DNA of 38,368 nt from Candidatus Adiutrix intracellularis. Lineage in GTDB: Bacteria; Desulfobacterota; Desulfarculia; Adiutricales; Adiutricaceae. Location of the stretch: positions 1 to 38,368 of the forward strand of contig LQAA01000152.1 of the NCBI GenBank assembly GCA_001577715.1, in the 5' to 3' direction. Below, in pieces: positions 9,262-37,350 of the stretch. The notes under the pieces were generated by a model. That model searched no databases. It had not been told where the DNA came from and saw only the letters and a list, made by a program, of their open reading frames with translations. How positions within the stretch are numbered: position 1 is the stretch's first letter; every line of letters begins with the position of its first letter. The position numbers were made by a program, and so were the translations under genes.

Positions 9262-10694
9262 TATTCGATCGCCTTACCCACCGGACTAGCGCCATTTCTC
9301 AAATAATCAACTGCCCGTTCCAGGCCCATGCTCTGAGAAGCTTTAACCAGAACTACAGCGCCACGCCCGCCTTCAACCGCAACCCAGGCTGCGGCTTGTT
9401 CGGGATTTTCAAACTCCTGAACCTCATTTTTACTCAACCCCGCCCTTTTAGCAGCCGCAGCCGTGCTTCGAGATAGGGGACCAATCAAAGCTAAAAAATC
9501 AAGCTTTAAGGCAGCGGCTAAGCGACCAACCTGACGGTGCAGTTCCGGTCCGGATAACCCTAATTCCAACATATCACCTAAAATAGCCCCTCTGCGACCT
9601 TTATTTTTCAATCCAGCTAGAACTCTTAAGCCGGCTTCGACCGAAGCCGGGTTTGCATTGTAACTGTCGTCCAATATCCATTGGCCACTGTCGGTTTTAA
9701 AACTAGCCAATCGGCCGTTTAAGTACCGTGCTTCTTCTAGACCCTCACTTATCTGATCCCAATTAGCGCCGACAGCCAGAGCGGTAGCGGCGGCGGCTAA
9801 AGCATTATGAGCATTGTGACGGCCCAGAAAATTAAGACGAACCCGGCGACCTTTTTCAGCGCCAGGGCCATAAATAATCAGAGTCTGGCCAGCGAGACCC
9901 CTGAGACTGACCCGGCCCAGCCTAACCTCGGCCCTACCGTCGATACCGAAATAGAGGCAGTTACCAGCAAAGTGCTTAGCTTCACGCCGCAGAAGCGGCT
10001 CATCAGCGTTGACCACAGCTACAGCTTCCGACGGCAACCCCGCATAAAGCTCACCTTTAGCCCGAGCCACCTGGCTTACGGTTCCGAAAAATTCAAGGTG
10101 AGCTGGTCCAACTGAAGTTATGAGACCAACATCCGGCTGGGCTAGATGAGTAAGACGGCTTATTTCACCAAAGCGATTCATCCCCATTTCCAAAACCGCT
10201 AGCCGAGTTCGCCGGGACAGACGAAAAAGAGTTAAGGGCACCCCAATCAAATTATTAAAATTGCCTCTGGTAGTCACCACATTCACATCCAACCGCTTCA
10301 AGATGGCAGCCAACATATCCTTAGTACTAGTCTTCCCATTTGAACCAGTCACCGCTACCACCTTTATCCGCTGCTTAAGACGTAGAGCCCGGGCTAAATC
10401 ACCTAGAGCCCGGAGAGGGTCGGAAACAATAAAAGACTGTGAAGCGACTTCGCCGGCTAAAGGTCTCCGGGTTACCAAAGCCAGAGCGCCCCGCTCAAGA
10501 GCTTGAACTACATAATCGTGACCATCGAATTTATTGCCGGCCAAAGCGACGAAAACTTCATCCTGGGCCACCGTACGACTATCAGTTGAAATACCGGCGA
10601 TATTTCGCCGCCCCAGCCGGGCTAAATCCAAACCACATTTTTCAACCCCCACATTTTCCGCGACCCAGTTGAGAGTTAGTCTCAAATCTTTCAT
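9261..10694 (-). CDS. murF: UDP-MurNAc-tripeptide--D-Ala-D-Ala ligase
   Basis: MurF adds the D-Ala-D-Ala dipeptide to the UDP-MurNAc-tripeptide, finishing the soluble precursor. The 477-residue protein has the N-terminal substrate domain with GISTDSRTVAQDEVFVAL, the ATP loop VTGSNGKTSTKDMLAA, the RGNFNNLIGVPLTLF block and the DDSYNANPASVEAGL motif that sets MurF apart from MurE. Length is normal. The ATG at 10694 shares one base with the murE stop and has a GGAAGGA site. D-Ala-D-Ala must come from a ddl located elsewhere, as none is visible in this cluster. Confidence 0.97.
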   Translation of the reverse strand: MKDLRLTLNWVAENVGVEKCGLDLARLGRRNIAGISTDSRTVAQDEVFVALAGNKFDGHDYVVQALERGALALVTRRPLAGEVASQSFIVSDPLRALGDLARALRLKQRIKVVAVTGSNGKTSTKDMLAAILKRLDVNVVTTRGNFNNLIGVPLTLFRLSRRTRLAVLEMGMNRFGEISRLTHLAQPDVGLITSVGPAHLEFFGTVSQVARAKGELYAGLPSEAVAVVNADEPLLRREAKHFAGNCLYFGIDGRAEVRLGRVSLRGLAGQTLIIYGPGAEKGRRVRLNFLGRHNAHNALAAAATALAVGANWDQISEGLEEARYLNGRLASFKTDSGQWILDDSYNANPASVEAGLRVLAGLKNKGRRGAILGDMLELGLSGPELHRQVGRLAAALKLDFLALIGPLSRSTAAAAKRAGLSKNEVQEFENPEQAAAWVAVEGGRGAVVLVKASQSMGLERAVDYLRNGASPVGKAIE

Positions 10695-12220
10695 TAATCC
10701 TTCCCCATTTTCCGAAGCGCGGCTAAGGCCTCTTGCTGATCGTTAAATGGTTTTTTCCCCCAACCAATAATCTGGTAATCCTCATGACCTTTACCAGCAA
10801 TTAATAAGACATCGCCAGGAGTCATAAGCCGCACGGCTTCAGTAATAGCCGCCTGACGGTCTATAATCATAAGATATCCACCGCCACCCGGCCAACCGTC
10901 ACCGACTAATTCACCCGGCTCATAACGATTTAAATTCAAAGTTTTGAGCCCCTCCTCTATTTCCAGCAAAATCCCCCAGGGTTCCTCGGTTCGAGGATTA
11001 TCGGAAGTCAAGAGGCATAAGTCAGCAATCTCTCCCCCTAGGCGTCCCATAAGCGGGCGTTTACCCCGATCCCTATCACCCCCGCAACCAAAAACCGCAA
11101 ACAACCTTTTGGCCTCTAAATTACCGGCAGTCTTTAAAACTTTGGCTAAGGCATCGGGAGTATGAGCGTAATCAACTAAAACTAAATAATCACTATTTGA
11201 ACCTACTTTTTCTAGACGACCGGGCGCTCCGGGGCAGAGGGCTAAAGCTTCCCGTATTGTTTCTAGTGCCAGCCGCAGAGATAAAGCCATAGCCGCCGCC
11301 GCCAGAATATTGCAGGCATTCACTTCGCCTAGCAAAGGGGAAGTCTGATGCCAGGTTTTTCCCCCAGGCACACTAATGGAAAGACTCAGGCCATTACGAT
11401 CGACCCGGAGATCGTCGCCCCGCACCTGAGCTTCTTCAGAAAAGCCATAAGTCAATGCTCTTTCACCTAATTCACCCGCCAAGCGACGTCCGTATTTATC
11501 ATCTATATTAATGACCGCTCTGCCGACTCCGGGTCGAAGATACCGAGTGAACAAAAGTTTTTTAGTCTTGTAGTAATCATCCATATCTTTATGAAAATCT
11601 AAATGATCGCGGCTGAGATTTGTAAAGAGTGCCACTTCAAAGTTAAGCCCCGCCACCCGCCCTAAAGACAAGCCATGAGAAGAAACTTCCAGAATGGCTG
11701 AACGGCAGCCGGCCTGATACATAGCTACTAGAACGCCGAACAAAACTGATCCTTCAGGCGTTGTGTTGGGAGCCGGGCGCGTCTCGCCCGGCCAGCGATA
11801 ATTAACAGTTCCCATAACCCCCGGTTTCAACCCGGCCCGTTTTAAAATGGCCTCCATTAAATAACTAACGGTAGTTTTACCATTAGTACCAGTGAGTCCG
11901 ACCGTAATCAGCTGATCGGTCGGATGGCCATAAATAATCGATGCGGCAAAGGCTATAATCGAGTGCAATCGTTCCTTCGGTGCCAAAAGTCGAGGGACGG
12001 CCAGTTCCAGATCCGGTTCCGGTAAAAGCACCGCCGCCGCGCCTCGGGCGACGGCCTCAGCCGCAAAATTACGACCGTTAAATCGAACGCCCGGCTGGGC
12101 AGCAAAAATCCAACCAGGGGCCACATTCCGGGAGTCATCGGTTATGCCACTAATCTCAGGATCACCCGAACCTCTAATCTCCAACTTCATTTGACTAGCC
12201 AAACAGCCCAAAGTCACCAT
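10694..12220 (-). CDS. murE: UDP-MurNAc-tripeptide synthetase, meso-diaminopimelate type
   Basis: MurE adds the third residue of the stem peptide. The 508-residue protein carries the N-terminal GITDDSRNVAPGWIF block, the ATP loop GTNGKTTVSYLMEAI, the NLSRDHLDFHKDMDDYYKTK segment with the site of the carbamylated lysine, and DYAHTPDALAKVL. The motif DNPRTEEP matches the DNPR signature that selects meso-diaminopimelate rather than lysine, so the wall is predicted to be DAP-type, as in other Gram-negative bacteria. It begins at 12220 behind AGAGG, 47 bp after ftsI, and overlaps murF by one base. Confidence 0.96.
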   Translation of the reverse strand: MVTLGCLASQMKLEIRGSGDPEISGITDDSRNVAPGWIFAAQPGVRFNGRNFAAEAVARGAAAVLLPEPDLELAVPRLLAPKERLHSIIAFAASIIYGHPTDQLITVGLTGTNGKTTVSYLMEAILKRAGLKPGVMGTVNYRWPGETRPAPNTTPEGSVLFGVLVAMYQAGCRSAILEVSSHGLSLGRVAGLNFEVALFTNLSRDHLDFHKDMDDYYKTKKLLFTRYLRPGVGRAVINIDDKYGRRLAGELGERALTYGFSEEAQVRGDDLRVDRNGLSLSISVPGGKTWHQTSPLLGEVNACNILAAAAMALSLRLALETIREALALCPGAPGRLEKVGSNSDYLVLVDYAHTPDALAKVLKTAGNLEAKRLFAVFGCGGDRDRGKRPLMGRLGGEIADLCLLTSDNPRTEEPWGILLEIEEGLKTLNLNRYEPGELVGDGWPGGGGYLMIIDRQAAITEAVRLMTPGDVLLIAGKGHEDYQIIGWGKKPFNDQQEALAALRKMGKD

Positions 12221-15859: not shown

Positions 15860-16321
15860 TCAAAGTGGTAGTCCCTTGATGATGTCAGGATTGATATCTC
15901 CAAGTCTAACGTTAGTGAAAGAGGCGGCCCTGACAGCAAAATCTAACGGCCGATTGCTGACAACGATCTTGTAAAGAGCTCCTCTAACTTCAACTTCACG
16001 AAGCAACGACAAGCGCTGTCGTTGGGGAATTAACACCCGCCCGGATTTATCTATGCTTAAACGTTCTGCATTACCCATATAAAAATCTAAAGCTTTTTCG
16101 CGTTCATCAGAATCTATAATTTTCCGCAAATCAGCTTCTATCGCCTGCCAGCTTTCATGGGGATAGAAAACCAGACCGCCTGTTTCCAGAGGTAAAGCCA
16201 CCACTTCCTCAGGCCGCCCAGATTTCAATAATTCTTCCCGATGTTTTACCGGTAAGGCCAGACGACCTTTATCATCGAGGCTATGCTCATATCTGCTCAT
16301 CAAGCTGAATCGGCTGCTCAT
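15860..16321 (-). CDS. mraZ: Transcriptional regulator MraZ
   Basis: MraZ is an AbrB-like DNA-binding protein that represses its own dcw operon and associates with the nucleoid. The 153-residue product contains two swapped-hairpin repeats. The first has DDKGRLALPVKHREEL (about 15-30) and the second has DKSGRVLIPQRQRL (about 85-98). The ATG at 16321 gives seven residues before MSRYEHSLDDKGR. Many MraZ proteins begin close to the second methionine, so 16300 is a possible start, but only the first ATG has an AAGG-like site nearby. It heads the operon and lies next to three consensus-like MraZ boxes. Confidence 0.95.
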   Translation of the reverse strand: MSSRFSLMSRYEHSLDDKGRLALPVKHREELLKSGRPEEVVALPLETGGLVFYPHESWQAIEADLRKIIDSDEREKALDFYMGNAERLSIDKSGRVLIPQRQRLSLLREVEVRGALYKIVVSNRPLDFAVRAASFTNVRLGDINPDIIKGLPL

Positions 16322-16369
16322 TATGATAACCTTAGGCTTGAGTTAGGGTTAATTCCAGGCTAACTTGGG

Positions 16370-16428
16370 ATTATACCCCATTTACTACCACATTTTCCCA
16401 CTTTATTATCTAACCACCCTAGTGTCAA
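16370..16428 (-). promoter_or_regulatory. dcw operon promoter region with three MraZ boxes
   Basis: On the minus strand three TGG-core boxes start exactly 10 bp apart: TGGG at 16400-16397, TGGTA at 16390-16386 and TGGGG at 16380-16376. This matches the known MraZ operator, which is several TGGGN-type repeats on one helical face. A TATAAT -10 hexamer (16375-16370) directly abuts the last box, and a TTGACA hexamer lies at 16428-16423. TATAAT is too far from that TTGACA to form one promoter. TTGACA with TAAAGT at 16405-16400 has 17-bp spacing. Two overlapping promoters are therefore possible, both covered by MraZ. Confidence 0.75.
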
Positions 16429-16860
16429 GGAAAAATTCCGAGGCAGCCGAAAAAAATACTACCCCTAAACATTTAGGTAGATGTAGATATTAAAATATTT
16501 TATAATTAACCTCCAGGCATTGTAAAAATTTACTTAACAGCGCCGATTGTTAAACCCGTTTCTCCCACCTAAAGCTAAAAATAAGAGGATAATTCTAATT
16601 AAAAAGTTAAAAGTATTATAAAGTTAATGAAATAATTATTATGTAGAATATAAATAAAAAATTATTATAGAATATTAATTATATTATTATATTTATGATA
16701 TAATTAATTATAAAATAAGAACAACTCTTTTTTAAGCCTCTCCGGTAAAAACGACCAAAAAATCCCCGCTAACTCATTGGACAAATGAGGTCAAAACTGT
16801 TACAGTCTAACAATTGAAGCCTGACTGCCCCAATTATTAACATATAAAATACGACGACTA
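16429..16860. other. AT-rich spacer between divergent dcw operon and nuclease pseudogene
   Basis: This 432-bp stretch is strongly AT-rich, especially 16590-16720, where long A/T runs such as TTATTATAGAATATTAATT occur. No open frame of useful size, RNA gene or clear hairpin-plus-T terminator was recognised. It must have held the promoter of the plus-strand nuclease gene and probably still drives nadE, but no convincing plus-strand -35/-10 pair was found. Confidence 0.5.
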
Positions 16861-18499
16861 TTGAAAATAAAAGCCTTAAGTGCAGTGTATACGGTTACTA
16901 GTTCCAGCTTAAAACTGGAACTAGACGAAGGAGTCAAGATATTACTGGATCGCGATCTCTTTTAAGGAGGCCGCCAAACGAAACTTCGAAATACTAATTT
17001 CGAGGTCTACAAACCCCGAAACTTCTCACTGATAATCCTGACCCATGCCCGCATAGATCACTCTAGCCTAGTGCCGTACCTGGTCAAAGCCAGCTATGCC
17101 AGCCCAATTTACACTACAACGGCCACCTAAAATCTTTCAAAATTTTGTAGCTAGGGGCAACTAATGTTCAGGAGCAAGAAGCTATCTAGCAGAGTCACAA
17201 AATTAAAAACACCAGGACAAGCGCGCTGTAGAACCCCTCTATACCGAAGCTACCGCCCGAAAGTCTATAACCTTACTCGACCCGCTAAATTTGGATAACT
17301 CCTTGAAGCTTATTCCGGGTCTTGACTCTCCGCCTCCTCCCCCCGAACACATTCTGGAGGCAACTAGCGCCCATTTCACCGTAACAAAAAACGGGCGCGT
17401 CCGCCGGATGCCTTTTCCCAGCAATCTCGGACAAACTGGGTATTTACTTATGCTAAAGTCAGCGAAACTACCGGAAGTGGACAATATTTTTATGGAAATA
17501 ACTAACGGTAACCGCTACCACAAAGATCTTAGGCCGTCGATCGATAAATTTCTAACCATAATAATTAAAACTTGGCAGGATCAGGGTAAGATTCTCATCC
17601 AGGCCTTCGCCATAGAACAAACTCAAGAATTATTACTACTTTTAGACCGAACCGGGCACGAAGGCCACCTACCTAAAAAACTAACTATAATTCCAAATTC
17701 ACCTCTAGTCACCGCCACTCTGACTATCTATAGCGACCACCAAAACCTCTTTAACCCCGCGATCAGAAATTTCCTAACCCAGGACCAAAATATAAAAAGA
17801 CTCCTACCTACCCTACACATCACCCGTAACACTAAAGAAATCCAAGCCTTAAACGACCTCATCAGCCCAATCGTTATCATAACCGGCAGCGACATAACTA
17901 ATGCTGGTCGCATTCTACACCACCTTAAGCACAATCTCTGGCAACCCAACTATCGCGTCATTTCCGTTAAGTTTCAAGTTCAGACTACTGCTAACCACCA
18001 CCCCACAGAAAGGGTCAGCGTGATAATTTTTTTTCGAGAACCAGTTCAAGCGAAAGCTCAAATTCACACCATCGGTGGTTTTTCCGAGCATACCGACCAA
18101 AAAAAACTCCTGATCTGGCTGCGTTACCAGGCTCACCCTAAGCTAACCATCAACCTAATTCACAGTGAGCCCACAAATACCAGAAACTTTTATGAGCTGA
18201 TCCACTGGGCCTATCCGAAAGTCAATTTCTACACTCCCATTTGGCTTAATTATGTACCTCTGAATGAAAAATCAGCCACCCTAAAAAATGATATAAGCCG
18301 CGCCCCCGCCCCCCCACCCCATTACCGACAACAAAGTCTACCCACCCTGCTACTCTGCCGCCCAAAACGCTTGTGCAACGAAGCCGCAGCCGCAACCACC
18401 ACCCTACCCCCGGATCAACAACTGACTCTTCTGGAAAACTGTCTAACCCAAGCAGAAAGTCTTATTTTGATCGGGACGATGAAAAAGATTAGGATTTAA
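16861..18499 (+). pseudogene. Broken beta-CASP metallo-beta-lactamase RNA nuclease (YSH1-like)
   Basis: Intact relatives are two-metal beta-CASP hydrolases of the mRNA 3'-processing/RNase J superfamily. The 5' part is readable from TTG 16861 as KALSAVYTVTSSSLKLELD, then the metal motif reads HARIDHSS where HxHxDHSG is expected. TAA at 16963-16965 replaces the glutamine of the GLFQGG motif. More stops lie at 17128, 17152 and 17187, and the frame shifts twice (frames 1, 3, then 2) before about 17210. From there the gene stays open to 18499. This part keeps ITGSDITNAGRILHHLKHNL and HTIGGFSEHTDQ, but several conserved positions have changed (STYG to ITNG, HGE to HSE). The last 70 codons are low-complexity and not recognisable. 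The stop is 2 bp before nadE, so the two were probably cotranscribed. Confidence 0.88.
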
Positions 18500-18501
18500 T
18501 A

Positions 18502-20142
18502 ATGTTGTGTGCTCTGCTCCAGATAAACCCTAAAGTCGGCGATATCGACGGCAACGCAAAACTGCTCCTACAGCAGATTGAAGCAGCAGCCAGATGCGGC
18601 GTTCGTCTGGCTATCAGCCCAGAAATGGCTCTAATCGGCTACCCACCCCGCGATTTACTTCTATATCCCACCCTCGTTGAGCGAGCGGAACAAGCCACTC
18701 TGGAGCTAGCCCAAAAAATTAAACCTCTTAACCTTAGCCTTATTCTAGGTAGCGTTGGTCCCAACCGTTCCGGCCAGGGTAAACCTCTACATAACCAGGC
18801 ACTTTTTATCGACAACGGCCAGATAGTAGCCCGCTACTATAAACGTCTTTTGCCCACTTATGATGTCTTCGATGAAACTAGATATTTTGAACCAGGCGAC
18901 CGCCCTCTAGTCGTTAACTGCGCCGGTTACCGCCTAGCCCTGACTATCTGCGAAGATATTTGGAACGATGGGAACTTTTGGCCCGAGCGTATTTACCAGC
19001 AAGATCCATTAGCCGGGCACCCCCCTTTTGATGTGCTCATAAACCTCTCAGCCTCACCTTTCGCCGTAGGAAAACAAATGCTGCGCCAAAAGATGATTCA
19101 GGCCCTAGCCCGTAAATATTCCGTCCAAGCCCTTTATGTAAACCAGGTCGGTGGCAACGACGAACTAATCTTCGATGGCCGCAGCTTGCACATCACCGCT
19201 ACTGGCCAGGTTAATGCCCGGGCCACTGCCTTTGTCGCTGACCTAAAAATTATAAATTTAGCTGATCCAACTCCGGATTTAGCAGAAGATGATTTTACGC
19301 CTGAAGCCGAAATCTTTAATGCGCTAGTTCTGGGAGTCAGGGATTATTGCTGGAAAACAGAACACAGCTCGGCGCTTCTGGGACTTTCTGGCGGAATTGA
19401 TTCAGCTCTGGTGGCCATAATCGCCTGCGAAGCTTTAGGTCCAAAACGAGTTCACGGCCTTATTATGCCCTCCCCATATTCCAGCGAACACAGCGTAACA
19501 GATGCCCTAGCCCTAGCAGCCAATCTTAAAATGGGAACCAGCATCCTAGCTATTGAACCAGCCATGTTAGCTATGGATAGCATTCTAGCGCCCGCTTTCG
19601 CCGGCCGGGTGGCAGACACGACTGAAGAAAATCTGCAGGCTCGTCTCCGAGGCGGCCTTTTAATGGCCTTTTCCAACAAATTTGGCCCCCTGCTTCTGAG
19701 CACTGGCAATAAATCCGAACTTTCCATTGGTTATTCCACTATTTACGGCGACATGTGCGGGGGACTAACGGTCATCGGTGACCTTTATAAAACTAAAGTC
19801 TTTAAGCTATGCCGCTGGCTGAACCAGACTAAAGGAATTATTCCTAAAAACATTATCCTCAAGCCACCTTCAGCCGAACTACGACCAGACCAGACTGACC
19901 AAGACAGTCTACCGCCCTATGACGAACTGGATGCTATTTTACATCTCATTATAGAAGGCCGAAAAAATGTGGACGCCATTGTTGCAACCGGCCATTCTCC
20001 GGTAATAACGGCTAAAGTCGCCTCTTTGGTAAAGGCCGCTGAATTTAAACGCCACCAAGCAGCCCCAATTTTAAAAACAAGCGCGCTCGCTTTCGGCCTC
20101 GGCTGGAGAATGCCCATTGCCGCGCAAACTGCCTATATTTAA
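18502..20142 (+). CDS. nadE: Glutamine-dependent NAD+ synthetase
   Basis: NadE makes NAD from deamido-NAD, ATP and glutamine in the cytoplasm. The 546-residue protein has an N-terminal nitrilase-type glutaminase domain with the triad Glu41 (SPEMALIGYPPRD), Lys114 (YYKRLLPTYDVF) and Cys150 (LTICEDIW). The C-terminal synthetase domain has the ATP loop SGGIDS at 296-301, plus TGNKSELSIGYSTIYGD and DLYKTKVF. All key residues are present and length matches proteobacterial two-domain NadE. The ATG follows the stop of the nuclease pseudogene by 2 bp, with only a weak AGGA site. No promoter of its own was identified. Confidence 0.97.
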   Translation: MLCALLQINPKVGDIDGNAKLLLQQIEAAARCGVRLAISPEMALIGYPPRDLLLYPTLVERAEQATLELAQKIKPLNLSLILGSVGPNRSGQGKPLHNQALFIDNGQIVARYYKRLLPTYDVFDETRYFEPGDRPLVVNCAGYRLALTICEDIWNDGNFWPERIYQQDPLAGHPPFDVLINLSASPFAVGKQMLRQKMIQALARKYSVQALYVNQVGGNDELIFDGRSLHITATGQVNARATAFVADLKIINLADPTPDLAEDDFTPEAEIFNALVLGVRDYCWKTEHSSALLGLSGGIDSALVAIIACEALGPKRVHGLIMPSPYSSEHSVTDALALAANLKMGTSILAIEPAMLAMDSILAPAFAGRVADTTEENLQARLRGGLLMAFSNKFGPLLLSTGNKSELSIGYSTIYGDMCGGLTVIGDLYKTKVFKLCRWLNQTKGIIPKNIILKPPSAELRPDQTDQDSLPPYDELDAILHLIIEGRKNVDAIVATGHSPVITAKVASLVKAAEFKRHQAAPILKTSALAFGLGWRMPIAAQTAYI

Positions 20143-21734
20143 AAACAATTCGTTAATATTTTACCGCTACACTTCCTAGAAGAACAATAAATTAGAAATG
20201 ACATCCACTAACAGAACCGAATCCACAAAGAGTAGGGCCGCTATGAGCAAGATTAAAATCAAAACAGCCAACAATTTTTTCGGAATCCTCCGCCTTTTTC
20301 AGATGCTTTTCATGTGAGCAGCAACCGGCCGAGCTTATTTTTAAGTGCAGGTTTGATCACGAATTTATACCCGCACTCCTAGAAACAGAAACTTAGTTCC
20401 GTCATCATCGGAAGAATGTCGACCGTAAATTTGCATTTCAGGCAACTTGCTGTCTAAGTCGGGAGGGGTAACCAACCCAGCTAGCGATTGATAGCCTTAG
20501 ACCTAATACTGATCTCCCGCCCCTAGCTGCGAAGGAAAGATTAATTAGGCAGATAACAGCGTCTAGTTATATTGGAGTTAGCTATAAGCCAGAGGTTAAC
20601 AATAAAAGGAGTTCCTAACCCGGAACCTCAGGTACTGACTACGACAGCAGGACATAATACAACAACTGAGACGACAAAAAAGTGGGTTAAAGTTGACCAA
20701 ACTGGAATTTATGGAGGATTAAAGGTAACTGAAGCGTTTTCAAAAAGCACTCTGACAAAATGTTGCTAACAACTTCTGTATTAGGTAGTTTAACCAATAT
20801 AACCACCTTCCATCAGATAAAATTTTTGTCGTGTTCATTCCTAGTTTTAACTTTTACCGTCCTGTCTCCCTTAACGATAATTTAATCTACATTTTATTGT
20901 AACTTATTTTAATTTAAAGTTCCAAGCTTAAAAACTAATAGTCTTTATTTTATTATAACTATCTCTTCAATTTTTGAAATCTAAATAGTAGATCCTTAAA
21001 AAGTATTTTAAAATAAACATAACTCAGGCATCACAGATTATATTGTCATAAAAAATAGTCAAAAGTATTAAGATCACCAGCTGCAAGTAAAGTTTATCTC
21101 CCATATCTATTCCATGAAATTAAAAGTAGCAGCAATCATAAGGACATTAATCTTATTTTCCAATATTTATTCCAAGAAATTTCGAAACATTTGAAAATCT
21201 AATTTAAAGTATCCGCTTTAAATGAGCTAACTCAGATAACGCGCAAGGTACAGTCTATTGAAAGGTTGTCTCCCCACAAAAATATTGAAAAATTGCATGC
21301 CCACTCTTGAATAACTTAATCATCGCTCAATTTCTCAAATTATTTTATAATTAACAACCTACACATTAAACGAATGTTTTCGGCTAAACGTCCTTAGTTA
21401 GAATAGCACTCTTGCAGCTCTCGTTCTAAGAGATTCCATAGTATTTTTATAACTACTTACGTATGAGTATCTCGAGGACTAATTTACTACAACAAATCCT
21501 CTTTGAACAAAACGCTTTACCCTGATTGTGGTGATTATGCTACCATAAATCCCTAAAAGAAAAGAACATTTCAACCGGAGTTTAAGGTAAATCTCGGACT
21601 GTATAATCTAAGTTATACTATAATTAATACAATTAATTAAAAATCAAGTAATTAATATATTTTTAAGGACCGCCCAAATAGGCTAACCTAGGTCCCTTCC
21701 CCTAGAAAAGTAAACTTTTAGCTGAAACTTAAGA
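20143..21734. other. 1.6-kb gene-poor stretch with a possible membrane-peptide fossil
   Basis: No intact gene is visible between the convergent nadE and yycJ genes. On the minus strand at about 20170-20500 there are two short coding-like pieces: LPEMQIYGRHSSDDDGTKF and, after stops, a basic then hydrophobic run beginning KRRRIPKKLLAVLILILLI. They look like the remains of one or two membrane-associated genes, but I do not recognise the family. A 65-codon plus-strand frame at 20572-20769 has no recognisable content. From about 20780 to 21680 the DNA is AT-rich, with stops in every frame and no recognised feature. Confidence 0.4.
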
Positions 21735-22949: not shown

Positions 22950-22990
22950 AAGTCACCTCTACAAACTAAGGTTAATATTATATAATAACC

Positions 22991-23019
22991 AATATATAGT
23001 GGATTAAATAATACGTCAA
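22991..23019 (-). promoter_or_regulatory. Sigma70-type promoter of dut-yycJ
   Basis: On the minus strand, TTGACG (23019-23014) and TATATT (22996-22991) are separated by exactly 17 bp and lie in the short intergenic space before dut. The predicted start of transcription is near 22984, which gives a leader of about 35 nt. This is sequence-pattern evidence only. Confidence 0.6.
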
Positions 23020-23139
23020 AATCTGAAACAATGATTCAGAAACTCAACTGACCGCTTTAATTTTAAACTTAATTCTCATGCTTTAGTATACTTATTTAAA
23101 TATAATTCTAATTAACTATTAAATATTAGCAAGTGCTAT

Positions 23140-24275
23140 TAGTGGGTAGGATTTATAGATTAAATCAGCTTAAGGACCTTTTGTTAGAAGGACTGGGTCT
23201 GGGTGATAATGTTGAAAGCAGAAAGTTATTTGTTGGTATTTTACACGTTGCAGCTTACTTAGTCTATATTGAAGTCGATAGTGGTAAGATTGATCAAAAT
23301 ACCGGCGAAAGGAAGAATAAGGAATCCATCCTTCGCCGTCTTCTTTGCCACTTTTTTTTGACACTGCCTGAGTTTTACATTAGTAATATGGAGTCGCAAA
23401 TTTCCTTTTAAACTAATTTCTTCATCGGTAAAAGTTAATTCCCTCCAGGTCTCACACATGTACAATTCAACATAGTAAGCCAACATACACAAAGATAAAT
23501 ACGCCCAAACTCTCGATTCCGTATAATAATAAATTGATCTAATTTTTTCGCTGATGTTTTTCGTTGTACGGAAGACTCATTTCACCTGTGATAATTTTTT
23601 ATAATTACGAACGCAGTCTTCGGCGTTCATTTTTTCCGGCGCAATTAAAGTTCTGATAATATAGATGCCATTAAGAATGACCTCCGCGGCAATGTTTTCA
23701 TCCTATTGAGAGAAGAGGAAACTGTCACCTTCAATTTTAAATTTAAAGTATTTTCCCAATATGGTATTTATCTATGACTCAACCAACGACGAAATCTATA
23801 GTGTTCCACCTCTGTAAGCGTCCGACCTCTACGTAGTTGCGAATTTTATCTAGATTTTTTCAGTGCTACTCAAAAGCTTTTCGCAAGCGTGCCGCGTTTG
23901 TCGGCCAAAAAATAGATATTCCCAATTTACTTTTGGGAGAAACAATATACGCGATCATCATAGCTAAAAATTAAATTTAGCTTGAAACCCAATTTAGAGG
24001 AGATAAATTCTGACAGTCCAAGTTTTTTTCATGATCACTATAACAGCCTAGACATGACCATAGAATTTTAATTAAACGATAGGAAAAAACCGCCGTGACT
24101 AGAATAAAAGATTTTTTGAGGCTACGCTTGATTAAATCAATGGCATCAAGAGTAAGACAGGAAAGACTAATCAGGATTATTTTTTTAACCTTTCCGTTGT
24201 TCAAATATGATTTTCGCAGGATAACAGCCAGGGTAAATTCTATCACTAGATTTATATACATAACCAAATAAACAT
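23140..24275 (-). mobile_element. Decayed IS1634-family transposase
   Basis: The minus strand can be read in pieces as an IS1634-type transposase broken by many stops and frameshifts. From the N terminus, AVILRKSYLNNGKVKKIILI and SCLTLDAIDLIKRSL lie near 24270-24120. VATEK-like text and LDKIRNYVEVGR follow near 23850. Next come LIAPEKMNAEDCVRNYKKL near 23600 and the best-preserved block, LCMLAYYVELYMCETWREL (about 23490-23430). KKVAKKTAKDGF and FNIITQ-like C-terminal pieces end near 23150. The order matches the family and the total length is close to a full transposase with internal deletions. No terminal inverted repeats were recognised. Small frames on either strand inside this span are debris or antisense shadows. 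Confidence 0.8.
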
Positions 24276-24790
24276 ATATTCATTAGAAGCAGTTTTATTT
24301 TTTTGACTTTTCCAATAAGGCTAAGAATTTTGTGCTAATATTACACAATCATAATATTAATTTATTAAAACTAATCATTTACTCCCCATTATGTTAATCG
24401 AGCTTCCACAATACTAATTTAAAATTTTAGTTGGTTAAAAAATTCTAACAAAAAAGTAAGCTATCTTCTTTTTATAAAAAATATAATATTTTAAAACAAA
24501 ATGCTCTTCTAGATACGTTTTTAGTTTCACTTAGTAAGTAAAAAAATCCACTTTTAAAATTTCTATTACAATTATATTATAATAACATAATACCTTGTAT
24601 AAATCAATAGTAAAATATCATCTACATAGATGTAATATTACAAATAAATAGATATTTTAGTAAAAATTTTAGTATTTTATAGAAAATAGCCACCAAAAGT
24701 TTAGTTTAAGACAACAAAAATGTATCTTATTATGAAACTTTTGAAAGTTCTGGATTTAAGGTTGTTTTTTTAATGGCCTCAATGTAGTAG
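24276..24790. other. AT-rich stretch, nothing recognised
   Basis: This is about 500 bp of very AT-rich DNA, with frequent stops in all six frames, between the IS1634 fossil and the next gene fossil. No RNA gene, clear promoter, terminator or repeat unit was identified. Confidence 0.5.
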
Positions 24791-24799
24791 CGAAGCCGA

Positions 24800-25168
24800 C
24801 GCCGCGGAAACCGGTAGCTTGGTAGAAACTTATAGCCACCCCCGTCGATAGTTACCAGAATGAGATAGGGTCGCCCCGGCACTACAGTAACCTATCTAAC
24901 CAGCGACGACCGAACCCATCCTATTTTCGTAACCAACAGTGGTTAGGCGGCTAAACGCGATCCATTACTGTCTATCTGAATACCAACATGCTGTATGACC
25001 TGTATACTACCAACCCGATCAGCATTAACGAAATATCTCTTACCGACATCATCCCAAAAGTCGCTACTAAACTAAGTTTATTTTCATAGACAAAATAACA
25101 GTTTCATCACCCAGCGAAGATGTTACTTTCCTATGCGATTAAACTTGAAGAAACCACCATCTATGCTA
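24800..25168 (+). pseudogene. Possible ExbD/TolR-like biopolymer transport gene fossil
   Basis: GC content rises here and coding-like text appears in two plus-strand frames. One frame reads SDDRTHPIFVTNSG, then after a shift TVYLNTNMLYDLYTTNPISI and NEISLTDIIPKVATKL, then PSEDVTF in another frame and SYAIKLEETTIYAS. The arrangement of a short strand, a 'NxxPISxxxLxxxIxxxA' block, a 'DEDVxF'-like loop and a final amphipathic helix resembles the periplasmic domain of ExbD/TolR. The N-terminal membrane helix cannot be read. At least three internal stops rule out a working gene. The match is from memory of the family and is tentative. The fossil runs directly into repeat copy C. Confidence 0.35.
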
Positions 25169-25400
25169 GTGAAACACATCAAAGATCACTTACGAAAAGA
25201 CCTTGCGACTAATCAACTAACATTAAAGGAATACATTAACTCGTTTATAAATGAGTCGGTAAATAAAGGTAAAAAGGGATAGCCCCTTTAGGGATAAGTC
25301 TGTGAACATGATACACTTAATAAATTATCCAGCACGCCCTAATGCGCTACCGTACCAACCCCTTATATGAGTGAACGGACACCTACTGAGCGGATGATCC
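25169..25400 (+). repeat. Repeat copy C: protein tail plus 3' noncoding segment
   Basis: This is one of three diverged copies of an unrecognised element (the others are near 30719-30965 and 32143-32275, both in reverse orientation). It begins with a coding-like tail containing HLRKDLATNQLTLKEYINSF and then ESVNKGKKG followed by TAG at 25280-25282. It continues with about 115 bp of noncoding DNA that contains TTTAGGGATAAGTCTGTGAA, an AACCCCTTATA block and a weakened version of the terminal hairpin (25380-25396). In the reference copy (A) that hairpin is CACCCGC-TGA-GCGGGTG. The preceding frame in copy A has almost the same tail, so coding tail and noncoding segment belong together. No known family was recognised. 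Confidence 0.65.
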
Positions 25401-25466
25401 TGATTCATTTCTTTATAACATACCACCTCTCCCCCAGCAAGACTATTCCAAAAGCAAAAAATAGAG

Positions 25467-30597: not shown

Positions 30598-30718
30598 GAA
30601 ATTAAGTTGCCGCTCTTTCCAATTAAAATTAAACAAAATCAACAATTAAAAAAAGTGGCTCTTTAAATAACACCGAGGAAAGCATTTTAAGTTAATTTAC
30701 CGGCCACACAATTAAAAC

Positions 30719-30965
30719 CACCCGCTCAGCGGGTGATCTACTTACCCTTATAAGGGGTTAGTACGGCAGCACCTAAAGAGAGCGCACTAAATAACTTGCC
30801 AAATATACTATATTTACAGATTCACCCCTAAATAGGCTATTTCTTTTTAACTTTGTTTATCGACTCATCCATAAACGAATCGATATATTCCTTTAACGTC
30901 AGTTGGATAATTGTCAGATCTTCCTGTAATTAATTCCTGATATACCCCAGTATTCGTAACCGTTC
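30719..30965 (-). repeat. Repeat copy A: protein tail plus hairpin-ended noncoding segment
   Basis: Reading the minus strand, a coding-like tail (DLTIIQLTLKEYIDSFMDES, then INKVKKK and TAG at 30839-30837) is followed by about 120 bp of noncoding DNA. That segment contains the perfect palindrome CCCTTATAAGGG (30745-30756) and ends in a perfect 7-bp hairpin CACCCGC-TGA-GCGGGTG (30735-30719). Copies B (32143-32275) and C (25169-25400) share the noncoding part, and copy C also shares the protein tail. Copy A is the best preserved. The hairpin lacks a T-run, so it is not a standard terminator. The element was not recognised and may be the 3' end of a transposable element. Confidence 0.65.
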
Positions 30966-31054
30966 ACAGCAATTATTAAGCAAGATATAATTATACATTA
31001 ATAGGCTAGTATATATATTATAATTATAGAATCAAGTAACCCACAAAATACAGT

Positions 31055-32105
31055 ATTTTAAGTTTTCCAGCATACAAGTAAACTAGAACATGTGTTTAAA
31101 GTTTTATACGACGAAAATATTTTATTCCGAGTAAAGAATGCTATATTATGAAATAAGGTTATTGAACTAGTAACTAAACTAGCTGGAGACCAAAATAATT
31201 CCATCAACTTATCAAAGGCCTCACCGTCTAATGTTACTAATCCCCATCAACAAAAGAAGCGCAGCAAAAAGTGTAAATTCGAAGTGCAACCAGGGCGTGA
31301 CCCCCATTTTTCGTACACCCTTTATCCCTGAAGAACTTAATAAGATCAGAACCTCTATCCTAGAGCTAAAAATATACGGTTGCTATGGAAAATTAATTAC
31401 CAAACTAGATAAAAACATTATGCAGCAATAAATTGAATCGGCTATTAACCTCCGGCGGCTTACCAAATATCGTGGAGCCGCTTATCTTTGTAACCGTTGT
31501 GAAGATACTTATTGTGGTTAGATACTATTTAAAATCATTAACCCTGAGTTCATAGGTCCGAATTTAGCTATTTATCTGGCTTTTCAAAAGGCAAGACCAT
31601 ACTTCGTACTCATCTTTACAGTTTTTGTAACTAAAATATTAGATTACTCTATACGCTGCGAACAAATAGCTAATATCTTAAAAAAGATCTCTGCTGCTTT
31701 AAAGACTCCCTATAAAAAGGCCTCAGATACCCTATCCTAACAATTTTTATTACATATAGACGAAACTAAATACAAATAAAATAATTATTAACCCTAGACC
31801 TGGATTTTTCGAATCGCTTTTTCCACAGTATTCAGAATACCAGCTCATCAATCATCAAAAGTTCTCCAATCAGTTTTGAGAAAAGATTTTACCGGATTAT
31901 CAAGCTATAATTACTATTCAACCTATTACAAGTATTTGAAAAACTACCCAGCCTAGGCCCAAGGAAGTACTAACTATTCCAATTTCTACGCCAAGCTGTC
32001 AACTCCTTCTATAAAAAGATAGGCACATTCTTCACTACTGCAAAAAGAACGTTCCGTAAACGGTTATAATAAACCGCCTTAACTCACGCTACTCCCAGGC
32101 TGCCG
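31055..32105 (+). mobile_element. Decayed IS66-family transposase (TnpC), copy 1
   Basis: Plus-strand text in changing frames follows the IS66 transposase order. A leucine-zipper-like N terminus begins near 31060. Next are KRSAAKSVNSKC and IFRTPFIPEELNKI (31250-31340), then a zinc-ribbon-like AAYLCNRCEDTY near 31480. The catalytic domain has LIAYLAF-like text, DYSIRCEQIANILKKI and KISAALKTPYKKASDTL (31640-31730), then LHIDETKYK (about 31755) and pieces near 31900 to 32050 such as SFYKKIGTFFTTAKK. Several stops and frameshifts are present, so the gene is dead. It sits between repeat copies A and B. The same N-terminal segment recurs at 36640. Confidence 0.8.
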
Positions 32106-32142
32106 CTTCAACACTATCGTGTAACTTAGCCACGATCAAGGT

Positions 32143-32275
32143 CACCCGCTCAACGAGTGGATAGTCTACTTACCCCTATAAAAATCAATACAGCAGCGTC
32201 TAAAGGCGCGCTAAACAGTTTGCTAAGTATACCCACGTCACAGGCCTACCCCTAAAAAGGGTCCTAGCCAAATTA
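32143..32275 (-). repeat. Repeat copy B: noncoding segment with terminal hairpin
   Basis: This copy has the same orientation as copy A but lacks a readable protein tail. It shares the TTTTTAGGGGTAGGCCTGTG start, the TATACTTAGCAAACTGTTTA block, the GCGC motif and the terminal hairpin at 32159-32143. As minus-strand RNA the hairpin is CACUCGU-UGA-GCGGGUG: it differs from copy A at two positions, and both still pair as U·G. The inner CCCTTATAAGGG palindrome is lost. It lies just after the IS66 fossil. Confidence 0.6.
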
Positions 32276-33067
32276 TTTAAATAAACGAACCCTAACCCCA
32301 CCCCTGAAACTAGCTTGGGGTATCCTCAAAAAGCCAGTAACGTTATTGACGCTATCCGGAAGCCGTAGCCCGCCGCATCCTCAGTCACCAGCGAAATAAC
32401 CTAACCCATCCAGCATTTATCAAAAAATAGAATAACAATAGCCTACACCCTTTATCCCACTCGTTCCCGGTTTTTTAATAATTTCCGCCAACCCTATACC
32501 GCGTTCATGATCTCCAATATAATATGCCCACCCGGATTAAAGACGGATAGTTCCGCTAACACATCGCGTTAAGACGAAGGCAAGGTTACGACCTTAGTTA
32601 TAACCCCGGTTCACTATTTCTCATAATCAATTAATTTCTGTTTCGAACCAATCTAGCTCAAATAGAGCCAGAGCTAACTATATTTCAACGCTTTACTTTC
32701 CGGTAGCCAAACTTTATTCAAAAGCTTTTCCAAACCTAGCAAAGATAACCACCATAGATTACGAGGGATTAACTCTTAACCTTTTTAGTCATTAGTTTTA
32801 AGGAGGCTATCATATTTATGAATCACCACAGCGACTATTAATACAATTTAGCGAAAAATCCTTACAGCGAAAATAAACGACCTCCGGTTCCGCGCTCGAT
32901 CTCAGTTTCTCTTCCCTATTCACATTACCAAACCACCCGCGCTAAATTTCTAAAGTTACTGCCAACCCTGCGAATACCTGGGGGGGGAATAAAACCAAAA
33001 TAAAGTTAATTAGTTAAAGACAGGGAGGACGGAGTCGTTCCCCCAGACTAAAAGTAAATTAGGAATC
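32276..33067. other. Gene-free stretch with coding-like debris
   Basis: No intact gene is present between repeat B and the 3' end of the inverse autotransporter. Moderate GC and short coding-like runs, for example VIDAIRKP and FMISNIICPPGLKTDSS on the plus strand near 32340-32570, suggest one or more old plus-strand genes, but the family could not be named. At 32801-32820 a good ribosome site AAGGAGG is followed after 11 bp by an ATG (MNHHSDY, then TAA), which looks like the start of a dead gene. No terminator hairpin was recognised. Confidence 0.4.
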
Positions 33068-36064
33068 CTAAGGACTAATACACACTGTCATTATTTCATT
33101 GAACAGCATGTACCAGTTCGTTTCGCCATCAGCAAGGGTAATACCAACGGCACCGAAGTCCTTGTCATTACCAACCGCTACTTCGCCTGTCCAATACCAC
33201 TGCCAGTCCCAATTAGCCGCAAAAGCAGCACCCTTACGCTGTACCTCACTGTTACGTTTATTACTATAAACAGATACCGCCAGCACTTGATCAGTTGTAG
33301 GCAAATTAGAGCCAACTGAATAACGGAAAGATCTGGTTTGCCCTTGGGGGCGATAAGGTTTTGTCCACCCACCAATACTAGGATTAGGATTAGAAGGTAT
33401 AAAACTAGCTTCATCCCAATTAGACGTAGTTGTCACATCATTATGCGTGGTGCCGCCACAAGTCGCTACAGCAGGGAAGCGTGTTGGGAAAGTCGCGTTG
33501 GTGTACTTATACTGGAAAGTACCAGGGACTTGTTTTTCAGGGGGACCACCGCTGCTAACATTATCCGGCGCCCAGGCTCGTAATTTCGTTTCGACCTTAG
33601 TAAATACTGACAAGGGACCATCACCAAAATGTATCGTTTTTTCTGCAGTATAAGTCTCAGCCCCTAAAGGTACCGAGACCTCTAAAGTCACTGAACGCGA
33701 ACCTACAACATCTGTTAATTTTACCTCACTTGTTTTACTAGGCGTTCCCTCCACCGGATAGGTGCCATCATCTTCGCCTTGTCCCCAAGTACTGGTTCCA
33801 TCGGCTATCTCACCCCAAGTTAATCCATTCTTAGAGTTCGGTTTTTTGCGCCGCTTCCACCAAGGGGCCGAAGGATTATCCATCACTACCGATTTCACAT
33901 TCCAGACCACATTACCAATTATATCCTCGATTTTACCGTGCCCATTCATAAAACTAACCTTCACCGAAGCCGTGCTTTGGTAACCCGATGGACCACCGGT
34001 TACGAAACTAGGTCCATTAGTCCACGTAAAAACTAGATGCGGTGGGATAGTTTCTCCATCAATATCGAGCTCCGAAGGATAAGCATCAAGGGGGAAAACC
34101 TTAGTGGTTTTACCCACGCTTAAGGTGGCCATAACCGGCAAAGTAGCTGTGGTCGGAACCATAGTCAGTACTACGACTATATACCCTCCCTCATCTGTCG
34201 TATAAACCCCACCTCGACTTAGGCTTACACCCTCCTGATCTAATGATACTTTAACTGTCCGACCTATGGGAACCAACCCAGAATCACTGGTGATCTGAAA
34301 CACAAACATATTCTGGCCTTTTGAACCCAGAGGAATAATATTGAAAATACCCTCATCTTTCTCCCGATATTCCAACAACATCTCATACTGACGATCTACA
34401 AATTCATAACGTGAACCCTTAACCGTTCTCATCTCCGCTACTACCTCCGAACGTAGCTGATCCTCCAACGGCACATCAAAGTGATAATTGAAAGTCAGAC
34501 CTAATTGGGTCTCTGACTGGCCACCACTATAACGCTGATCCAAACCTACAGATAACAACGGTACTGGAGTCCACTCTACCCCCGCACTCCATACTTTTGG
34601 GTCAATATTCAAATTGTTACTCTGACCAAAAGCGCCAACATTATCTCCATACCACTGCTCAAAGGCCGTCTTCACCGCCAAGTTCCGATAAAAAGGCAGA
34701 TAACCAGTCAACCGGGCGTCCCAACCCTCTGCCGCCTTTTCCTCCACCTTTATCGAATCGTAGTCTCTGGAATCTTTCCACCCCGATAGCGACGTATACT
34801 GGTTCACCGCTAGACGTAGCCAATCATACCAACCTTCTACACCCACACCCCCACGACTATGAGAACGTGTAAAATCGTAATCTAAAAAACCGTTATAACC
34901 TAAGGCCAAATCATCACTCAAAAAGAAACGCTGCCCTAAACCGAAATTACCGATTACCCTATCACCACTCATGGTACGTAACCCAAACTGGCTAAATACT
35001 GTCATATCTTCCGTATTATATAAAGGCAGTAAAAAATCTCCGGAACCAGTGATACGTTCATCCAGATTCAAGTTTAAATTTAACCGAGTATTCCCGTAAC
35101 TACTCAACCAACCCTCGGCCCATGAAAGGACTGCTCCACTCCCCACCGATAACGCATGTTGCAAAAGACGCTCGCTAAGGTCGATAGGGTTAAGCTGAAC
35201 TGGTCTAGATGATTGACGACCATACGAACCATCAGGGTTCCGGTTGTGATTTTCGGCATTGTAATTATGAGACGTCTGCACCCGCTCATGAACCGAAGGC
35301 TTATCAGCTTTACCTTTACTAGAATCCCTATCCAAACCCGGTAGACCTAGAAGTCCAAAGGTCCGATTCAAGGTCGAGGTCTTCGCCGACACCACCGGAG
35401 CCGCGACGGGAGCAGAAGCGGAAGCCCCCGTCCCATTATTCCGACGAGATCCAAGATCCATCTTCTCTGAAAACGGCCCCCGGCTTTCGCCGAGATAACT
35501 AGCCTGAGGGGAAGCCGCTGACTTATTAGAATATGCCGTTTTCTTACCAGCCTCGCTCTCTCCCGTGTTGAGCGTCGGAACCGCCTCAGCAGTCTGGCTA
35601 AGTGAATCAACTATTTCCCTACCAGCTTCGCTCTCTCCCGTGTTAAGCGTCGGAACCGCGCTCAGCAGCCTAACTACTGAATCAACTATTTCCCTACCAA
35701 CCTCACTCTCTCCCGCGTTAAGCGTCGGAACCGCCTCAGCAGTCTGGTTAAGTGAATCAACTATTTCCTTATCGACCTCGCTCTCTCCCGCGTTAAGCGT
35801 CGGAATCGCCTCAGCAGTCTGGTTAAGTGAATCAACTATTTCCTTATCGACCTCGCTCTCTCCCGCGCTAAGCGTCGGAACCGCCTCAGCAGTCTGGTTA
35901 AGTGAATTAACTGAACCACACATTGAATCGGATACAGAACTAGAAAACTGCTGCTCGGAGACCAAGGGAACTACCCCCGGTCGGCTTTGATAAAGCAGAA
36001 TAAAAAAAGCAACCATAAGTAGTTTTATCCCAACACCTAAACGTAAACCACTCATATTAATCAC
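33068..36064 (-). CDS. Intimin/invasin-type inverse autotransporter adhesin
   Basis: The protein is predicted to sit in the outer membrane and expose its C terminus. Of 998 residues from GTG 36064 (ATG at 36055 gives 995), about 1-30 form a signal peptide, and 54-178 hold five 25-residue repeats. Residues 180-290 are a low-complexity linker, and about 295-545 form the inverse-autotransporter beta barrel. Barrel evidence includes ERLLQHALSVGSGAVLSWAEG, FSQFGLRTMSGDRVIGNFGL, FLDYDFTRSHSRGGVGVEGW and VWSAGVEWTPVPLLSVGLDQ, followed by the conserved RYEFVDRQYEMLLEYREKD. About 570-660 resembles a Big1-type Ig domain, and the remaining 330 residues are beta-rich passenger of unknown fold. No LysM domain is seen before the barrel, where enterobacterial members usually have one. 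No chaperone or secretion gene is adjacent; export would use Sec and BAM. Confidence 0.88.
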   Translation of the reverse strand: MINMSGLRLGVGIKLLMVAFFILLYQSRPGVVPLVSEQQFSSSVSDSMCGSVNSLNQTAEAVPTLSAGESEVDKEIVDSLNQTAEAIPTLNAGESEVDKEIVDSLNQTAEAVPTLNAGESEVGREIVDSVVRLLSAVPTLNTGESEAGREIVDSLSQTAEAVPTLNTGESEAGKKTAYSNKSAASPQASYLGESRGPFSEKMDLGSRRNNGTGASASAPVAAPVVSAKTSTLNRTFGLLGLPGLDRDSSKGKADKPSVHERVQTSHNYNAENHNRNPDGSYGRQSSRPVQLNPIDLSERLLQHALSVGSGAVLSWAEGWLSSYGNTRLNLNLNLDERITGSGDFLLPLYNTEDMTVFSQFGLRTMSGDRVIGNFGLGQRFFLSDDLALGYNGFLDYDFTRSHSRGGVGVEGWYDWLRLAVNQYTSLSGWKDSRDYDSIKVEEKAAEGWDARLTGYLPFYRNLAVKTAFEQWYGDNVGAFGQSNNLNIDPKVWSAGVEWTPVPLLSVGLDQRYSGGQSETQLGLTFNYHFDVPLEDQLRSEVVAEMRTVKGSRYEFVDRQYEMLLEYREKDEGIFNIIPLGSKGQNMFVFQITSDSGLVPIGRTVKVSLDQEGVSLSRGGVYTTDEGGYIVVVLTMVPTTATLPVMATLSVGKTTKVFPLDAYPSELDIDGETIPPHLVFTWTNGPSFVTGGPSGYQSTASVKVSFMNGHGKIEDIIGNVVWNVKSVVMDNPSAPWWKRRKKPNSKNGLTWGEIADGTSTWGQGEDDGTYPVEGTPSKTSEVKLTDVVGSRSVTLEVSVPLGAETYTAEKTIHFGDGPLSVFTKVETKLRAWAPDNVSSGGPPEKQVPGTFQYKYTNATFPTRFPAVATCGGTTHNDVTTTSNWDEASFIPSNPNPSIGGWTKPYRPQGQTRSFRYSVGSNLPTTDQVLAVSVYSNKRNSEVQRKGAAFAANWDWQWYWTGEVAVGNDKDFGAVGITLADGETNWYMLFNEIMTVCISP
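35531..35905 (-). repeat. Five 75-bp tandem repeats coding the adhesin N-terminal repeats
   Basis: Five in-frame 75-bp units encode 25-residue repeats with consensus SLNQTAEAVPTLNAGESEVD followed by KEIVD. Units 1-3 are nearly identical, while units 4 and 5 have diverged. Unit 4 contains an extra base near the Ala-Val codons and a missing base about 10-20 bp away, so six or so residues are read in another frame before the frame returns. The region lies between signal peptide and barrel, on the periplasmic side, where a peptidoglycan-binding domain is often found. A long antisense frame over the same DNA is only a product of the repeat. Confidence 0.9.
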
Positions 36065-36639
36065 TTTTTATCTTTTACAAAAATAAATAGCAAAATAAAA
36101 CTCGAACTTTATAATGAAATAATCTATTCCCTAGAAATAACAACTAGGAGAAGAAGAGAAAAATCTGAAAGAAAAAAACGATAATACTATAACAACCATC
36201 CGACGAAAAAATTAATCTCTTTACATGCAGACAAAAGAAACTAAAAATACGTTTATTTAAAGAAAATAATAACTATACTAAGTTGCAGGGTAACTAAAAA
36301 ATATCAACCGACGTCAGTTGACCGGGAAAAATACTTGTACGCGACATTTAACTCTTAACCATATAACTATCTCCAACTAAATAACTCCAACTAAATAACT
36401 TGGGTCTTTTTAAGTTACCAGATTAACCAATCATTATCATATCTAAATATAAATAAAAAGTAAATTAAAATGCAAGATATTTTTCAATAATTCTTATTTT
36501 ATAGTTACATAACACATTCGTCAGGCAAAATTTAATTTTTTAATTTTTAGTAATAATTTACAATAATTATCAAATTAGATATAATTATATATCAATATAA
36601 AAATCCACCATGTTGTGATCGTGGAGTTAACAAAATAAC
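36065..36639. other. AT-rich upstream region of the adhesin
   Basis: About 575 bp of AT-rich DNA between the adhesin start and an IS66 fossil. It must contain the adhesin promoter; TATAAA (about 36104-36114, minus strand) is a possible -10 without a good -35. A direct repeat of CTCCAACTAAATAACT occurs at about 36370-36400 in two adjacent copies. No gene was recognised. Confidence 0.4.
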
Positions 36640-36960
36640 AAGATACAATATTTCAAATTCTCCAGCGTATAGATAAACTGGAATACGCGCTTAAAGGGTT
36701 ACACGATAAAAATGCTTTGTTACGAGCAAAGAATGCTACGTTACGGAATAAAATTACCAAATTGGAAACTAAAATAGCTAAAGCCCGAAAGAATTCCAGT
36801 AACTCATCAAAGTCCCAATAATATGACATTATCACTCTCCACCAATAAAAAAAGTGCGGCAAAAAGTGTAAAGTTAACGCATAACTAAGACATAAGCCCC
36901 ATTTCCGTAGCCTTTTATCCCTAAATAATTTAATTAAATCAGAATTTTATATTTATTAGG
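36640..36960 (+). mobile_element. IS66-family transposase N-terminal fossil, copy 2
   Basis: A plus-strand frame reads IFQILQRIDKLEYALKGLHD then KNALLRAKNATLRNKITKL and ETKIAKARKNSSNSSKS before a TAA. This is the coiled-coil N terminus of IS66 TnpC up to the usual SSKPPSSD segment. Shortly after, KKSAAKSVKL-like and PHFRS-like text appears in other frames, then nothing. The rest of the transposase is missing, so this is a truncated remnant. It aligns with the start of copy 1 (31060-31340). Differences by eye are mostly transitions, as expected for neutral decay. Confidence 0.75.
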
Positions 36961-37350
36961 AGGAATTTTAGAATCAAACTTTTCAATCACCAAACAAATT
37001 TAAAATCGTATCTAAAATAGTATTCTTATTACAAACATATTATAATTATTTATAAAAATAAGATAATCTATTTTTTGTTAAGTTTTTCTATCCAACTAAA
37101 AATTTAATTTATCTTATGTCTTCTTAATGCGGCTAGTGAACCTTCATCTTAACAATCGGAGACTTCTTTAACTTAGAACTAAAACTAAAGAACACCTACC
37201 ACCAGCATAGCTAATGGTTTTTCCAAACTTAAACATACGAGAAAGTATTGTTCAGAGCTACTTTTTCTTTAAATATGAAAAGATTTTTTTCTTGCATTGA
37301 TAAGGAGGCCTATGTTAGATTTAATAAAATTTTGCCCCGGAGGTTATTTT
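36961..37350. other. AT-rich leader of the small basic protein gene
   Basis: AT-rich DNA without recognised genes. Two ribosome-site-like motifs lie near the end: AAGGAGG at 37302-37308 with an ATG at 37312, and CGGAGG with a 7-bp spacer to the ATG at 37351. A 13-codon in-frame stretch separates these two starts. No convincing promoter pair was found. Confidence 0.4.

Follow-up and report, generated by a model that had tools for sequence, protein, structure and literature searches.

The locus and its relatives

The DNA considered here, referred to below as the window, is one complete contig of 38368 bp from the genome assembly (2.07 Mb, 154 contigs, completeness 91.6%) of Candidatus Adiutrix intracellularis, an organism that PMC7608387 describes as endosymbiotic in the Trichonympha flagellates of termite guts. 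At 16861–18496 on the plus strand, the window carries a gene for a beta-CASP ribonuclease of the TTHA0252 type that is now a pseudogene (Table 1). Frameshift-aware alignment with intact orthologues of 539–546 codons, encoded in genomes G002 to G005, traces the homology from 16861 to ~18470 on the plus strand.

Table 1. Features of the pseudogene and its surroundings (window coordinates)
Feature	Positions	Strand	Basis
AT-rich spacer (29.5% GC) from mraZ (minus strand) to the pseudogene; both strands carry promoter-like sites	16322–16860		composition, consensus scan
Broken 5′ part of the gene: first portion of the MBL domain, including the HxHxDH motif	16861–17206	+	frameshift-aware alignment, invariant columns
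Open 3′ remainder of the gene: 402 codons counted from TTG 17291, 430 between the flanking stops	17207–18499	+	ORF list; Beta-Casp and RMMBL Pfam matches
Span between opposite frameshifts within the open remainder	17324–17347	+	L003 alignment only
Decayed metal-binding motif, FSGD of relatives to FPSN	17417–17434	+	loss of invariant S (17417), G (17420), D (17423) and R (17432)
In-frame internal ATG giving 335 codons; has the strongest SD-like sequence and aligns with a Met in the orthologues	17492–17494	+	alignment, SD energy
Beta-Casp domain match (PF10996)	17621–17992	+	profile match
Intact nadE (NAD synthase carrying a CN_hydrolase domain)	18502–20142	+	ORF, profiles, branch lengths

An intact, stop-free match is present in four of the six same-genus genomes, and no beta-CASP match was found in the remaining two (G001, 81% complete, and G006, 77% complete). 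Homologues occur in 49 of the 60 genomes searched, the window genome counted, and within its own assembly the pseudogene is the sole match to the Beta-Casp family. The preliminary description had seen a beta-CASP nuclease in the course of being lost and had proposed comparison with intact homologues; that comparison, with orthologues intact elsewhere in the genus and the family's only local copy disabled, upholds the reading. An alignment search placed the Candidatus Adiutrix MAGs Gx485_bin45, Kf353_bin84 and Hs463_bin11, together with Deltaproteobacteria bacterium Smac51, among the named best matches of the window beta-CASP protein; a search of named genomes with the window protein alone, by comparison, had returned zero relatives. 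A tblastn search of plasmids gave 217 records, all at <60% identity.

The intact orthologue L003 comprises MBL, beta-CASP and RMMBL domains, the last two of which still score above cut-off in the pseudogene (Beta-Casp PF10996, 76.2 bits; RMMBL PF07521, 29.2 bits). The best solved relative of L003 is TTHA0252 of Thermus thermophilus (PDB 2dkf, 3iek and others; match over residues 1–438 of the 540 of L003, phmmer E 1.8e-82). According to PMC4229858, TTHA0252 is a beta-CASP RNase with 5′–3′ exonuclease activity, the disruption of which shifts mRNA levels but which is not essential. By contrast, the window copy is broken, has lost metal-motif residues and is not expected to yield a product. Going by the family, the link between the lost nuclease and RNA turnover that was suggested earlier is plausible; two RNase E/G-family matches with open frames are left in the window genome.

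Damage to the gene

Frameshift-aware alignment with the four same-genus orthologues places in-frame stops at 16963, 17128, 17148, 17187 and 17204, all within the first 21% of the gene, and two single-base frameshifts near 17137 and 17196. The stop at 17204 sits in a one-codon insertion, so that the total is four or five according to the mode of counting. The four stops and two frameshifts reported in the preliminary description were thus correct as to the frameshifts and within one as to the stops (five if the inserted codon is counted), whilst the metal-binding MBL domain, which it placed upstream, falls partly inside the open half too.

The HxHxDH motif and the Asp of FSGD, which we take to be the metal motifs of the MBL fold, are not intact in the pseudogene: at 17050 a His that is invariant in 19 relatives has become Arg, and at 17423 the metal-motif Asp, equally invariant in 19 relatives, has become Asn. 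The invariant initiator Met at 16861 is replaced by TTG, a codon still able to start.

Further downstream a 402-codon ORF runs from TTG 17291 to TAA 18499 on the plus strand and, as foreseen in the preliminary description, is liable to mislead annotation. The other two plus-strand frames of 16701–18502 contain 45 stops (longest open run 42 codons) and 32 stops (longest open run 66 codons). It had been allowed that a working start for the ORF would count against decay; TTG 17291 is a poor one, with a duplex energy of +0.4 and no Shine-Dalgarno match, and what is found across the gene is a frame interrupted by the stops and frameshifts listed above rather than one that is continuous from a start with a ribosome-binding site. 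In 17600–18000, 24 of 56 invariant columns are changed. Alignment with L003 also places two mutually opposed frameshifts, one near 17324 and one near 17346, which are absent from the alignments with the other three orthologues, L004, L005 and L006. Apparent frameshifts against L004 and L006 (two alignments) fall in the variable, poorly conserved C-terminal linker at 18269–18376, and frameshift-aware alignment with L005 places none in the open part. Judged from its sequence, the 402-codon ORF does not encode a conserved protein, nor is a functional protein expected from 17291–18499.

Constraint is lost equally in both parts

Amongst columns invariant in 19 relatives, the residue is lost at 22 of 60 in the 5′ part and at 47 of 125 in the 3′ part (Fisher P = 1.0), confirming that the open half, too, has changes at conserved positions; leaving out codons with stops or frameshifts gives 18 of 56 and 46 of 124. 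In successive bins along the gene the losses are 9/35, 13/25, 14/30, 8/20, 16/36, 9/30 and 1/10, so that both ends are the least changed. The C-terminal RMMBL stretch is somewhat less changed than the rest of the 3′ part (10/40 versus 37/85, P = 0.05), a mere hint, and the very 5′ end is less changed as well (9/35).

Branch lengths give the same picture. Third-position rates are saturated. At codon positions 1 and 2 the window lineage has lengths of 0.539 and 0.327 for the 5′ part and 0.549 and 0.375 for the 3′ part, where the four intact same-genus tips have 0.048–0.143; four longer family-level tips in the beta-CASP tree reach up to 0.357 (position 1) and 0.179 (position 2). The lengths are thus raised 4–5-fold in both parts of the pseudogene but not in nadE, where the window lineage (0.210 and 0.227) can be set beside six other tips (0.216–0.437 and 0.131–0.314). 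Protein-level constraint is gone to an equal extent in both parts. The locus combines disabling mutations relative to intact orthologues with a loss of purifying selection across the whole gene, and a later decay of the 3′ half alone finds no support. Having lost constraint to the same degree, the two parts most likely died together.

Is the open frame more than chance?

Within invariant codons (positions 1 and 2), G has changed to A on the sense strand in 41 of 111 cases and C to T in 7 of 68. We used this observed spectrum to simulate decay, with the genus orthologues as proxies for the ancestor and the matrix resampled (4000 runs per matrix). The simulations lead one to expect 2.1–2.5 stops in the 5′ part and 5.6–6.7 in the 3′ part; the probability of no stop in the 3′ part is 0.0015–0.005, and that of a stop-free run of such length anywhere in the gene 0.003–0.011. 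Estimated from invariant codons only, the probability of a stop-free 3′ part is 0.042, whilst a fixed matrix with a single orthologue as ancestor proxy gives 3.0e-4 to 6.5e-4. The eight disabling events that were counted, four stops by substitution and four frameshifts, all fall in the first 30% of the gene; under uniform placement, the post hoc P is ~6e-5. A base-composition null (~1e-8 in its plain form, 3.5e-4 by codon position) was rejected, the frame being descended from a gene.

A control within the genome set 617 G005 ORFs (each of ≥120 codons, drawn from 801 kb) against 567 kb (27%) of the window genome, window included. This yielded 110 places, 24 of which were flagged for stops or several frames; in 20 of the 24, the window gene included, the alignment shows two or more stops. 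The flagged places without a stop, namely L227, L143 and L233 (one frameshift each) and window 9921–12220 (none), were excluded as controls. The 19 other multi-stop pseudogenes, a set that was selected for stops and is therefore biased towards them, have 1.1–10.3 stops per 100 codons and a longest stop-free run of at most 165 codons. Just two of the 19 come near the length of the 3′ part, L220 (427 aligned codons, longest run 80) and L229 (382 aligned codons, longest run 85). The window gene is an outlier among multi-stop pseudogenes.

Across all 110 sampled places, two or more stops occur in 20 apart from the window gene, among them L211:13242-13721, which lies outside the 19 aligned controls; in this count of 21 the window gene enters with four stops, the inserted codon being left out. 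Scaled from the sampled fractions, a rough estimate for the whole genome is a couple of hundred pseudogenes, and with so many, about one survivor like the window gene, or fewer, would be expected by chance. For the window gene taken alone the chance explanation is not comfortable, and the gene was singled out for being striking.

Strand orientation alone was also considered as a source of stops and proved weak, the difference lying in the expected direction (2.6 versus 3.7 stops per 100 codons): 56 stops in 2134 codons for 11 pseudogenes with a C-rich sense strand and 66 in 1779 for eight with a G-rich one, in a sample that required at least two stops and was uncorrected for age. Two pseudogenes fall in neither group: the window gene, and L234:17289-18050 with a skew of 0.00 and 20 stops over 245 codons. 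The pooled spectra (G>A 0.39 and C>T 0.19 for C-rich sense strands, 0.27 and 0.26 for G-rich ones) are not mirror images. GC skew on the plus strand is negative in 38 of 38 1-kb steps of the window, which suggests a replication-strand bias.

Pseudogenes of Mycobacterium leprae and Sodalis glossinidius, as described in PMC2753549 and PMC7067036, likewise have multiple stops, frameshifts, relaxed constraint and poor start and Shine-Dalgarno sequences. An in-frame stop is lacking in 25 of 486 transcribed M. leprae pseudogenes, and an estimated 80% have at least three (PMC2753549). The window gene differs from the pseudogenes described there in having all its stops in the first 21% and then 430 open codons.

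Alternative explanations

We consider it probable that the whole gene is one pseudogene in an eroding Candidatus Adiutrix-like genome, with a 3′ frame that was inherited, has not yet been closed and stays open mostly by luck. Both parts would have died together, and the substitutions that followed were mainly G-to-A on the sense strand; such hits would produce stops chiefly at rare Trp codons and largely spare Gln codons. The 3′ frame would then be a still unclosed legacy of a coding gene, and its escape, set against the stops of the 5′ part, would be mostly luck, at ~0.3–1% per gene amid many pseudogenes. That figure comes from the decay simulation, which serves as the stop-free probability check proposed in the preliminary description, and chance fits best. 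This would be ordinary genome-erosion biology with an annotation trap, in which a dead gene's tail is taken for a 402-residue protein; a simple remedy is to compare the loss of invariant residues between the stop-bearing and the stop-free part.

That the gene is intact and its 5′ part merely suffers from an assembly or sequencing error is hardly credible: the source is a 154-contig assembly, but missense decay is as heavy as nonsense decay and affects the whole gene, and the neighbours mraZ and nadE keep open frames. It is also very unlikely that the 3′ ORF yields a truncated beta-CASP/RMMBL protein whose role is new or non-catalytic. The 402 open codons, the two profiles above cut-off and the less changed RMMBL stretch would suit such a product, and in Sodalis seven split pseudogenes gave peptides from one of their ORFs (PMC7067036); yet the 3′ part has lost invariant residues at the same frequency as the 5′ part, which is certainly dead, the rate acceleration is equal in both parts, TTG 17291 is no good start and one alignment shows an internal out-of-frame stretch. 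A death in two steps, with the 5′ part truncated first and the 3′ part under selection until recently, would account for disabling events confined to the first 30% of the gene, but with equal proportions of invariant losses and similar codon-position rates in the two parts we regard it as improbable, if a little less so than a truncated protein.

The other explanation, raised in the preliminary description, is that translation into nadE has been selected, and this we hold to be unlikely but worth setting out in full. Ribosomes crossing the 3′ part would shield its RNA from Rho and reach the nadE start, so that stops and frameshifts would be purged and missense changes free; nadE would have been placed behind a dying gene by rearrangement and then transcribed through the pseudogene. 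Several observations are consistent with this. The nadE ATG lies 2 bp past the stop of the pseudogene frame, the window genome encodes a Rho RNA-binding domain, and in base composition the 3′ part is rich in C and poor in G (A 0.31, C 0.30, G 0.16, T 0.23), so that a long untranslated transcript could in principle face Rho. Stops in the 3′ part are fewer than simulated while missense changes are free, and opposite frameshifts, where seen, cancel. A consensus scan finds four plus-strand promoter-like sites in 16300–18560, all upstream of the pseudogene and none between it and nadE. Internal ATGs have SD-like sequences, with energies of −3.8 at 17450 and −7.4 at 17492 (long spacing), compared with −3.7 for nadE and −3.1 to −10.1 for 13 window genes. 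Against it, the upstream stops mean that an internal start is required, and the adjacency is not conserved: the beta-CASP neighbourhoods from G002, G003, G004, G005 and G011 do not include nadE. Moreover, the pseudogene L219:3927-4628, which lies 40 bp upstream of an unbroken, stop-free place on the same strand, is full of stops (10 in 285 codons), although this is one case. Two of the 21 multi-stop places, the window gene and L219, are seen within 50 bp upstream of a same-strand stop-free place, in a test where only the 110 sampled places could appear as neighbours and most rows were therefore empty. A literature search on pseudogenes, polarity and operons gave, among the matches listed, no title on frames kept open against polarity, which is no proof of absence. 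If selection did hold the frame open, the locus would exemplify a reading frame maintained for the sake of being translated and not for its product.

Gene neighbourhood and upstream spacer

The beta-CASP gene lies near mraZ, in divergent orientation, in G002 and G003 as in the window, and its upstream neighbour is a proC-like gene in G002 and G004 and a cytochrome c assembly gene in G005. The best proC-like protein match of the window genome is on a different contig. Either the beta-CASP/nadE pair would have arisen by rearrangement in the window lineage or it would have been lost in the others. The spacer between mraZ and the beta-CASP gene measures 539 bp in the window, whilst its counterpart in G002 contains two ORFs, B3/4-domain and proC-like; an upstream deletion or rearrangement may have removed the expression context of the pseudogene. 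Over 16300–18560 there are 12 promoter-like sites, as against 4.8 (sd 2.3) in shuffles, and nine of these are inside the spacer. The nearest plus-strand site ends at 16850, ~1.65 kb upstream of nadE.

Other decay and features in the genome

Within the window, 20143–21734, 22950–25466, 30646–33067 and 36065–37296 are stretches of 27–38% GC with no ORF of at least 100 codons, and presumably represent further decayed genes. Elsewhere in the genome, heavily broken homologues of G005 genes, with 10 to 21 stops each, are found at L229:13636-14793, L234:17289-18050, L211:8299-8793, L220:7849-9031 and L219:3927-4628. Stop-free homologues with a single apparent frameshift are found at L143:2851-4136 (76% identity), L227:1421-2714 (75%) and L233:1367-2259 (48%); these may be fresh pseudogenes, programmed shifts or sequencing errors. 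On the minus strand of the window, 33068–36064 encodes a 998-aa ORF that matches the inverse autotransporter beta-domain (PF11924, E 3.5e-73).
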